Of a stretch of 45,281 nt of DNA, positions 32,136 through 34,328 are shown piece by piece. Position 1 is the stretch's first letter. Each line of letters starts with the position of its first letter. The notes beneath the pieces are model-generated. The model was not told the origin of the DNA. It searched no databases and saw only the letters and a list, made by a program, of their open reading frames with translations. The DNA is from Gaiellaceae bacterium (lineage in GTDB: Bacteria > Actinomycetota > Thermoleophilia > Gaiellales > Gaiellaceae), in the NCBI GenBank assembly GCA_030446625.1, contig JAUJMY010000021.1, positions 1-45,281 of the forward strand, given 5' to 3'. The position numbers and the translations under genes were made by a program.

Positions 32136-33017
32136 CTACGCGGCGACCGGCTCGAGCAGCCGGAGCCGCTCGAGGCTCTCGCGCACCCGCGCCGTCTCCT
32201 CGTCGTTCGCCTCGACGAGGGGGAGCCGGCAGCCGCCGACGTCGTGCCCGAGCAGGTTCAGCGCCGCCTTGATCGCGATCGGGTTGGGCGCCACCTTGAG
32301 GATGTCGAGCGACGGGCGAAGCTCCTCGTCGAGCTCGCGCGCACCCTCGACGTCGCCCGCCTCGTAGCGGCGGATCAGCTCCTTCACCCGCGGCCCGACG
32401 ACGTGTGTGTGGACGCACACGCCGCCGACGCCCCCGAGCTCGAGGAACGGCAGGATCAGGTCGTCGTCGCCGGCGTACAGCTCGAGGCCGAGCTCGACGA
32501 TGCGGCGGGCCTGCTCGGGGTCCGCGTTCGCCTGCTTCACAGCCGTCACGTTCGGGATCCGCGCGAGCTCCGCGATCGTCTCCGGCTCGACGTTGATCAC
32601 GACGCGGCCCGGGATGTTGTAGACGACGATCGGCTTCTCCGTCGCCGCCGCGATCGCGTGGAAGTGCGCGACGATCCCGCGCGGCGGCGGCTTGTTGTAG
32701 TACGGCGTGACGACGAGGAAGCCGTCGACGCCGAGCTCGTCCGCGCGCGCGGTGAGGTGGACCGAGTGCGCGGTCGAGTAGGTGCCGGTGCCGGCGACGA
32801 CGCTCGCGCGATCGCCGACCTCGTCGACGGCCGCCGCCCAGAGCTCGTAGCGCTCCTCGTCGGTCAGCGTGGGCGACTCGCCGGTCGTCCCCGTGACGAC
32901 CAGGCCGTCCGAGCCATTCTCGACGAGGTGGCGCGCGAGCGTGCGGAACCGCTCGAGGTCGACGCTGCCGTCGCGCCGGAACGGCGTCACGATCGCCGTG
33001 AGAACCTGCCCGAGCAC
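32136..33017 (-). CDS. dapA: 4-hydroxy-tetrahydrodipicolinate synthase
   Basis: 293 residues from a GTG. TIM-barrel class I aldolase family. The catalytic set falls at Y133, R138 and K161, the same numbers as in the E. coli enzyme. The GTTGESPTL loop at 43-51 is present too. It condenses pyruvate with aspartate semialdehyde, the first committed step to DAP and lysine. It lies nine bases after the merB-like gene and is followed by rnj. dapB lies on the other side of the merB-like gene, so that gene interrupts the dapB-dapA pair. Confidence 0.95.
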   Translation of the reverse strand: MLGQVLTAIVTPFRRDGSVDLERFRTLARHLVENGSDGLVVTGTTGESPTLTDEERYELWAAAVDEVGDRASVVAGTGTYSTAHSVHLTARADELGVDGFLVVTPYYNKPPPRGIVAHFHAIAAATEKPIVVYNIPGRVVINVEPETIAELARIPNVTAVKQANADPEQARRIVELGLELYAGDDDLILPFLELGGVGGVCVHTHVVGPRVKELIRRYEAGDVEGARELDEELRPSLDILKVAPNPIAIKAALNLLGHDVGGCRLPLVEANDEETARVRESLERLRLLEPVAA

Positions 33018-33026
33018 GCGCGCAGT

Positions 33027-33710
33027 CTACGCGGCGGGCCGGAGTCGCCAGAAATCGCCGACGAGCCCGAGCTCCGCGAACAGCCGCTCCACCTCGTCCG
33101 GGGTGTAGCGGCGCCAGTCCGGCGCCAGCCGGTGCGCGTACCACGCGTCCGCCAGGCGCCACAGCTGCTCGAGCGAGCACGACCCGCCGCGCGGGAGGCG
33201 CCGTTGCTCGAGCCACCGATCCACGTGCGCTTCCGACCGGAAGGCGAGCATCGTGCTTCAGGTGAAAGCGATGTTGTCCCACCACTGCGTCGGCGGGACG
33301 ACGACGTGGAAGACGCCGCCGGCGTCCGCGCCGCGCAGCTCGCGCGCCTCGACGCGGAGCGTCATCGACTCGTTGCAGTCGGCGCAGTGCGTGTGGACGG
33401 CGCCGTCGCCCCCGAGCATCGAGACGATGCCGAGCGCGTCCCAGGCGCAGACGCCCCAGAAGTCGCCCCGCGGGGTCTCGACGCGGAACGGAGACGGGTA
33501 CGCGCACAGCGGGTTCGCCATCCAGACGCTCAGCGTCCCCGGCGCGAGCACGATCACGCGGGCGTGCTCGAGGCGCCGATAGGCGTGCGCGACCTCGTCC
33601 TCGCGCTGCGCCAGCGCGCTCGCGGTCTCCGCGACGGTCGGAGGCTCCCCTTGGGCGACGAACTCGCGGTAGATGTGGAGGCGGACGTCGTTGTCGAGAT
33701 CGGTAGTCAC
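33027..33710 (-). CDS. MerB-like organomercurial lyase homologue, candidate selenoprotein (in-frame TGA at 33258-33260)
   Basis: Read through the TGA, the frame gives 227 residues. A winged-helix N-terminus (about 1-60) precedes the MerB core. C88 and D91 (in WGVCAWDALG), C109 (in THCADC) and codon 151 (the TGA) lie exactly eight places before MerB C96, D99, C117 and C159. So the TGA stands where MerB has its catalytic Cys159. Sequence continues in the same frame after it with the family C-terminus (FRSEAHVDRWL, PDWRRYTPDEVE, LVGDFWRL). A SECIS-like hairpin follows. I infer selenocysteine at 151; a nonsense mutation giving a broken gene is the alternative. The GTG start overlaps the dapB stop (GTGA). 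Whether it cleaves carbon-mercury bonds or does another reaction is unknown. Confidence 0.8.
33222..33255 (-). promoter_or_regulatory. Candidate bacterial SECIS element
   Basis: On the minus-strand RNA, two bases after the UGA, CACG pairs with CGUG (33255-33252 with 33225-33222). After a bulged A, UGC pairs with GCA. A small asymmetric internal loop follows, then CUUCC pairs with GGAAG, closing a GGUC tetraloop at 33238-33235. The loop begins 19 bases after the UGA. In E. coli fdhF, as I recall it, the GGUC of the apical loop begins 18 bases after the UGA. Bacterial SECIS elements need a G early in the apical loop at roughly this distance. All pairings were read directly from the sequence. 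Confidence 0.65.
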
Positions 33711-34328
33711 TCGAGGAGCGCCTCGAGCCCGACCGTAAGCCCCGGCGGGAGCTCGTGCAACCGCTCGAGCGCCAGCAGAACGCCCGGGACGAACGCCTCG
33801 CGGGAGAACGTGTCGTGCCGGATCGTCAGCAGCTCGCCGTGCCCCGCGAGCAGGACTTCCTGGTGCGCGACGAGACCGGGCAGGCGGACGGAGTGGATCG
33901 GGGTCTCGCCAGGCAGCCGCTCGGCCGTCGCGCGCGCGGTGCCCGAAGGCGCGTCCCGCTTCGCCTCGTCGTGCAGCTCGACGATCTCGGCGCGCGGAAG
34001 GTGGCGCGACGCGTCGGCCGCGAATCTCATCATCAGCACGGCGCCGAGCGCGAAGTTCGGCGCGTAGAAGCACCGGACGCCGTGCTCACGCGCGTGTGCG
34101 TCGACCGCGGACGTGTCGAACCCGCTCGTTCCGATCACGCACGCGACTCCCGCGCGCCGACGCAGCGGCGCACGTTCGCCGCGACGGCATCCGGCCGCGT
34201 GAAGTCCACCGCAGCGTCGAACTCCGCGCGCGGCTCCCGAACCCCTCCACCTCGTGCCCCGCCGCCGCGAGCGCCGGCGCGATGACGCGCCCGACCTTCC
34301 CCTCGTGGCCGAAGAAGGCGATCCTCAC
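33707..34328 (-). pseudogene. dapB: 4-hydroxy-tetrahydrodipicolinate reductase, broken by two one-base frameshifts
   Basis: Starts at GTG 34328 in a GTGA overlap with the M16 gene. The first frame gives RIAFFGHEGKVGRVIAP (nucleotide-binding turn). One base is missing at the G-run 34242-34245, after which a second frame gives REPRAEFDAAVDFTRPDA. One base is missing again near 34149-34151, after which a third frame gives ACVIGTSGFD and LHDEAKRDAPSGTA, the catalytic loop. Restored, the protein would be about 207 residues, short for DapB. DapB reduces the dapA product with NAD(P)H. Because the step is normally essential and the flanks are intact, sequencing error in G-runs is more likely than true loss. 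Confidence 0.8.

Follow-up and report, generated by a model that had tools for sequence, protein, structure and literature searches.

In the window analysed here (the whole 45,281-nucleotide (nt) stretch of Gaiellaceae bacterium contig JAUJMY010000021.1, assembly GCA_030446625.1), a gene on the reverse strand belongs to the MerB family and carries an in-frame TGA at codon 151. We consider it probable that this UGA is read as selenocysteine (Sec) in place of the catalytic Cys159 of MerB, and that the product cleaves carbon–mercury bonds. The case for a selenoprotein is built on the conservation of the UGA, the Cys found at this place in full-length homologues, a conserved hairpin with a GGUC loop and the presence of sel genes in the host genome. 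The conservation of the TGA and the hairpin is far beyond chance. An earlier note on this DNA had proposed the exchange of Cys159 for Sec, and the TGA conservation, the hairpin, the Cys homologues and the sel genes all support that proposal at the sequence level.

The read-through product matches the Pfam MerB family (PF03243) with 89.8 bits (cut-off of 27). In a profile alignment to solved MerB chains C88, D91, C109 and codon 151 fall on C96, D99, C117 and C159 (MerB residue numbers counted from the printed chain ranges of the structures), and the offset of eight places that the note had described is therefore exact. Among the catalytic places Cys96 and Asp99 are kept and Cys159 is replaced by the predicted Sec codon; the fold of the product is predicted to be that of MerB/MerB2. 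The place of the TGA and the length of the coding sequence past it had also been described correctly: the frame starts with GTG, the TGA at 33258–33260 is its codon 151, and coding continues in the same frame for 76 sense codons with the C-terminus of the family, up to a TAG at 33027–33029. Gene finders call the gene as a 150-residue product ending at the TGA.

The TGA is a shared property of the relatives. A protein database search found 192 proteins, of which the best 120 listed were checked at codon 151; 117 (the window's own included) end exactly before this codon and two end within one residue of it, and the single full-length protein among those listed (P0014, 239 residues) has Cys at column 151. 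A scan of named genomes with one genome per species gave 206 relatives. In the best 80, which were retained, codon 151 is TGA in 79 and TGG in one (L091). By NCBI label the 79 TGA loci belong to Actinomycetota (26), Chloroflexota (15), Gemmatimonadota (13), Acidobacteriota (11), Planctomycetota (4), Calditrichota (2), Fidelibacterota (2) and five more phyla with one each, with one locus unassigned; the TGA is thus common to relatives labelled as 12 phyla, although single labels may be wrong because most of the labelled assemblies are metagenome bins. In a sample of the window's own class a match was present in 36 of 399 genomes: the column holds TGA in the host genome and 28 others and Cys in one (L041), and six matches are weak, one of them (G079) in a gene of different architecture whose second site is TGA. 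The same TGA recurs in many other assemblies, including the single-contig genomes G459 and G534.

Some further copies were observed alongside these. The TGG gene L091, which encodes Trp at the column, has also lost the GGTC stretch, yet selA is present in its genome. Four more Sec-type MerB-like genes (L145, L146, L147 and L150), two of them in single-contig genomes, have a TGA and a hairpin-like GGTC stretch, and by eye L145–L147 have Trp instead of Cys at the Cys117 place. Viral contigs yielded one fragment with the TGA (L171), a search of phages gave no match, and plasmids yielded a Cys form in Paraburkholderia sp. PGU19. On a plasmid of Rubrobacter radiotolerans RSPS-4 (L173) an annotated merB of 89 residues ends at the Sec-type TGA; this gene looks decayed, as the MerB-like remainder lies in another frame.

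Of 7997 proteins scored in a profile search, 941 were matches, and the best 120 listed were checked. Column 151 is Cys in all 120 of these full-length homologues, as is column 88, and column 91 is Asp in 119 and Glu in one. The possibility raised in the note of unrelated residues at codon 151 is thus not borne out among them. A second Cys stands at column 158 in 112 of the 120; in the Sec genes this column is Arg, or Trp in six, and its CGG or TGG codon is part of the hairpin loop. In a quick tree of 213 rows, calculated from all columns except 151 and 158, a single branch (Shimodaira–Hasegawa-like approximate likelihood-ratio test value of 99) holds all 91 Sec rows together with two Cys rows (P0014 and P0222) and the Trp row. 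L091 is among the long branches that the tree program flags. The tree fits a single gain of Sec followed by a few losses.

The hairpin predicted downstream of the TGA as a selenocysteine insertion sequence (SECIS) was assessed in 109 records, which represent 97 distinct genes, 96 of them with TGA (positions are counted in nt from the UGA). The best fold of nt 12–37 contains the GGUC hairpin in 88 of the 96 genes, compared with 12–29 of 96 in 20 synonymous control sets. The codons of the loop are almost frozen: Arg is encoded by CGG in 89 of 90 cases (27.6% elsewhere in the same genes) and Ser by TCG in 88 of 93 (35.5% elsewhere). The pair that closes the loop is C–G in 88 genes, U–A in five, U–G in one and broken in two. 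The five U–A genes, labelled Acidobacteriota, carry TGG TCA for CGG TCG and may represent one event. The real genes form the closing pair in 97.9%, against a mean of 33.5% and a maximum of 47.9% in 1000 sets with randomly chosen synonymous codons; for the GGUC loop the corresponding values are 95.8%, 25.8% and 40.6%. The note had expected the TGA and the hairpin to occur together in relatives, and this is what is found (TGA in 79 of the 80 retained, hairpin in 88 of the 96 distinct genes).

In the window itself, the best folds of nt 1–48 and nt 4–42 hold the GGUC loop, with probabilities of 0.96–0.99 for the four loop-proximal pairs, and in nt 4–42 the lower stem starts two bases past the UGA; the hairpin is present in nt 1–48, 4–42, 10–39, 13–39, 13–60 and 13–72. 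The geometry given in the note, a hairpin two bases past the UGA with its loop at 19, is therefore seen in the nt 4–42 fold, and the case for the hairpin comes from its conservation and not from the window sequence by itself. In nt 13–48 the pair beside the loop-closing pair reaches a probability of 0.5 in 73 of 94 genes, with a value of 0.05 for the window's gene. The model of the bacterial SECIS (bSECIS) given in a recent article has a loop of 3–9 nt with G in the first two loop positions, a stem of 4–16 base pairs (bp), a spacing of 16–37 nt and a minimum free energy of −7.5 or lower (PMC13188914). The window agrees with this model through its 4-nt loop GGUC, its spacing of 19 and an energy of −9.0 kcal/mol on 27–30 nt, while several longer stretches fold otherwise. 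An Rfam scan of 33000–33750 gave no match up to an E value of 1.

The machinery for Sec insertion is present in the host genome (93% complete), as the note had asked of it: selA, selB and tRNA-Sec (anticodon TCA) lie within 12 kb on contig C29, all over cut-off, and selD is over cut-off on contig C1. An ECF sigma factor-like frame lies, among others, between selB and tRNA-Sec. Of 32 genomes that together carry 33 of the 80 named loci, picked for spread and including the TGG genome, 30 have selA over cut-off. In the class sample it is over cut-off in 20 of the 29 genomes with the TGA gene compared with 170 of the 370 others (Fisher p of 0.02). Counts of tRNA-Sec in relatives were dropped as evidence because serine tRNAs also exceed the cut-off (L003, at 51.7 bits, is a tRNA-Ser). 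In eight of ten tested class genomes with the TGA gene, a TGA falls within the region that matches formate dehydrogenase; the host genome yielded no Sec formate dehydrogenase, its best match (81.5 bits) being without TGA.

Several observations weigh against a Sec-containing organomercurial lyase. The protein sequence largely dictates three of the four upper-stem pairs (the controls pair in 97.6–99%), so that the three pairs next to the closing pair carry little information, and the hairpin is not the best fold in eight of the 96 genes. The window folds otherwise in nt 10–48, 10–60 and 13–48 and in a 61-nt stretch (nt 1–61, z of −0.93), and its 27-nt hairpin taken alone is equalled or beaten by 24 of 200 shuffles. 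The set of full-length homologues, being annotated open frames gathered with a profile in which column 151 is Cys, shows the identity of the residue and not the frequency of stops, and could not have revealed other stops. The product misses the NCBI MerB cut-offs (NF009710, 41.7 bits against 193; NF033555, 32.9 bits against 200). Nine of the 29 TGA-bearing class genomes are without selA over cut-off and eight without selB (20 and 21 have them), and seven have neither of these over cut-off nor a convincing tRNA-Sec; the genomes with missing sel genes are incomplete (56–91%), and true absence is possible. MerA is over cut-off in two of ten genomes tested from these 29, and the genes that adjoin the window's gene are dapB and dapA, not mer genes.

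By analogy with MerB we infer lyase activity on organomercurials. In a computational study of MerB, deprotonated Cys96 or Cys159 binds the mercury of the substrate, Asp99 takes up the proton of the other Cys and passes it to the leaving carbon, and Hg2+ is then taken off by thiols or MerA (PMC4525700). In the Sec protein, SelB would bind the hairpin and deliver Sec-tRNA at the UGA. Following the published MerB mechanism, Cys88 and Sec151 would bind the mercury of R-Hg+, and Asp91 would hand a proton to the leaving carbon with release of R-H. At neutral pH the selenium of Sec is already deprotonated, and the resulting selenolate holds mercury more tightly than a thiolate does. From this chemistry Sec151 would be expected to favour the first steps, with capture at low substrate, and to slow the last, the release of Hg2+. 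Removal of the ion would fall to cell thiols or to MerA, encoded on another contig of the host genome (G000:C23:321931-323313, 582.4 bits). Beside this MerA gene lie another MerA-like oxidoreductase and a membrane protein of DsbD type. Given the two genomes with MerA among the ten tested, many hosts of the Sec gene may have to clear Hg2+ otherwise.

If the TGA were a real stop, the gene would make a truncated MerB of 150 residues. That is where gene finders end it, and the dapB gene in three frames shows other damage in the window's assembly; the frame past the TGA is nevertheless conserved in protein, length and C-terminus, the codon choice preserves the hairpin, and full-length homologues have Cys at this codon, which leaves a true stop very improbable. 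Slightly less probable still is a restart, in which a second chain would begin at an ATG three codons past the TGA and a split MerB would be assembled. Met stands at this place in 78 of the 96 genes but not in the other 18 (Ile in 13, Tyr in five), the split enzyme would be without the Cys159 residue, and the hairpin and the presence of selA would be left unexplained. A sequencing or assembly error or a recent nonsense mutation, to which the disrupted dapB next door might point, has practically no chance of accounting for the TGA, as it is refuted by the occurrence of the same codon in dozens of other assemblies and in the two single-contig genomes named above.

It is possible, although rather unlikely in our judgement, that the gene encodes a selenoprotein of MerB fold with a job other than organomercury lysis, acting on another organometal or soft metal or serving in the scavenging or sensing of mercury. 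The place of the gene between dapB and dapA, the lack of any neighbour family in more than 14 of 81 loci and the scarcity of MerA in the tested genomes would all agree with such a role, as would the continuation of distant relatives into an AAA ATPase or a nucleotide cyclase; SaoL, the nearest Sec relative in print, is called an organometallic lyase, with no stated substrate in the table entry concerned. On the other hand, all three catalytic places are kept (Cys96, Asp99 and, as Sec, Cys159), the host genome has a MerA, and the predicted fold is that of MerB/MerB2, so that a Sec-containing lyase is the reading we prefer.

A phylum-wide search (33 of 396 genomes at an E value of 1e-10) revealed genes with two TGA codons. 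In G731 (a single contig of 2.2 Mb), G623 and G632 the first TGA occupies the Cys96 column, within the context W-F/Y-GL-U-GME, and the Asp99 column is Glu; the second TGA, at the Cys159 column, is followed by the same GGUC hairpin. In the G731 gene (L142:738-2201) the MerB domain (51 bits) is followed in frame by an AAA ATPase (23.1 bits, cut-off of 21.2), and by eye the frame of the other two (L143 and L144) likewise continues into an AAA ATPase. A database search with the first 156 residues of a two-TGA protein found 153 proteins; 104 of the best 120 listed end just before the Cys96 column, and the others have Cys (nine), Trp (four), Ser (one) or Val (one) there, with one unclear. The identity of the stop is presumed in the remaining relatives, since the DNA covers only three two-TGA genes. 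Behind the first TGA a 7-bp hairpin is present in L142 and L144 but not in L143, and the controls fold equally in 161, 170 and 71 of 300; no significant SECIS was thus found behind the first TGA of L142–L144 against 300 synonymous controls each. A plasmid search gave no match to the two-TGA protein. In a further gene (L154:572-1900, in G079) the Cys96 place holds Cys and the Cys159 place TGA, and the product also carries a nucleotide cyclase domain (40.1 bits, cut-off of 21.9). The two-TGA MerB–ATPase genes are candidates for a two-selenocysteine protein. We give even odds to a wider proposal: that mercury enzymes have adopted selenium on a large scale, and that the Sec-MerB clade spans at least 12 phyla and has a related family in which Cys96 and Cys159 are both Sec, forming a Se–Se mercury clamp fused to an AAA ATPase (to a nucleotide cyclase in the one-Sec relative), as a selenium-based organomercury sensor or handler and not a plain lyase.

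The coordinates of the gene and its surroundings are collected in the table. The note had placed the MerB-like gene between dapB and dapA, and dapB indeed lies upstream and dapA directly downstream; the GTG start codon overlaps the dapB stop by 4 nt, dapA begins 9 nt past the end of the gene, and an M16 peptidase is the other neighbour identified. Compared with dapB of L048, the window's dapB (33713–34322) is spread over three frames, so either the assembly has indels there or dapB is broken. The gene neighbourhood was dropped as an indicator of function. When the neighbours were compared by clustering in 81 loci, of which many lie on short contigs, the order dapB–merB–dapA was found only in the window, L048 and L049, and the largest neighbour cluster, which by reading is ABC-transporter-like, covered 14 loci at scattered distances.

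Table. Features of the MerB-family gene region (window coordinates)
Feature	Position	Strand	Remark
MerB-family gene, in-frame TGA	33027..33710	−	227 residues if the TGA is read
TGA, codon 151, MerB Cys159 column	33258..33260	−	predicted Sec codon
TAG stop of the MerB-family gene	33027-33029	−	
76 sense codons 3′ of the TGA	33030..33257	−	family C-terminus (FW motif)
Cys88 codon	33447..33449	−	MerB Cys96 column
Asp91 codon	33438..33440	−	MerB Asp99 column
Predicted SECIS hairpin	33222..33255	−	lower stem and apical hairpin
GGUC apical loop	33235..33238	−	first base 19 nt past the UGA
dapB C-terminal part (DapB_C)	33707..34138	−	whole gene spread over three frames
dapA (DHDPS)	32136..33017	−	directly downstream

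The criterion for methylmercury breakdown in genomes and metagenomes is a MerB with Cys159. In a survey of 84,032 genomes, MerB homologues were examined for C96, D99, C117 and C159; its table records a single Gemmatimonadetes genome with MerB and none from the Acidobacteria or Planctomycetes (PMC8261052). The Sec form was found here in 13, 11 and four loci labelled Gemmatimonadota, Acidobacteriota and Planctomycetota. Surveys that demand Cys159 would probably miss the Sec genes, as these are called as 150-residue stumps that end before the residue. If the proteins are active, a class of potential demethylators has been overlooked. Moreover, the Cys forms and apparent Sec-to-Cys reversions that exist beside the Sec forms would offer a natural test of the benefit of selenium in Hg–C chemistry.

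SaoL (NF040728; protein accession WP_238493467.1) is reportedly to be attributed to Haft and Gwadz, in 2023. The note knew of no described Sec-containing MerB, and here it is not borne out: Sec-containing MerB-like proteins are already in print, as an entry in a table row (PMC9312934, 2022), an 'organic mercuric lyase MerB2' among predicted selenoproteins (PMC7435645, 2020) and a 'MerB-like organometallic lyase SaoL, CU' (PMC13188914, 2026). In the accessible portions of the literature searched for Sec together with MerB, no description was found of the present clade, its spread or a two-Sec MerB. The identification of the window gene as SaoL was rejected, because with 36.7 bits it stays far below the cut-off of 140, and it has a Thr-Sec motif instead of Cys-Sec; 22 of the 23 members of A1 match NF040728 at an E value of 1e-3 (best 8.3e-15). 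Judged by its sequence, the gene is a new and widespread variant, distinct from SaoL.

Like SaoL, the window gene has a predicted Sec in a MerB-like protein. The SaoL model ends near the codon 151 column, and the motif is CU in the printed table entry compared with Thr-Sec (residue 150 is Thr) in the window gene. MerB of the plasmid R831b type (PDB entries 1s6l and 3f2f) has Cys159 where the window gene has the Sec codon, and Cys at the Cys160 place, where the Sec genes have Ser (40 of 96), Ala (26) or Lys (13). In MerB2 (PDB entry 5c17) the Asp99 column is Ser and the Cys159 column is Cys, whereas the window gene has Asp91 and the TGA. The Cys-type clade (for example an alkylmercury lyase family protein of Sinosporangium) is homologous to the Sec genes over the full length, but mostly combines the Cys at column 151 with a second at column 158, a position taken by Arg or Trp in the Sec genes. 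Finally, the window resembles bacterial selenoprotein mRNAs with a bSECIS in its UGA, its loop at 19 nt and the G in the first loop positions; in those mRNAs Sec serves a redox enzyme, whereas in the window gene it would lie in a predicted mercury-binding site.
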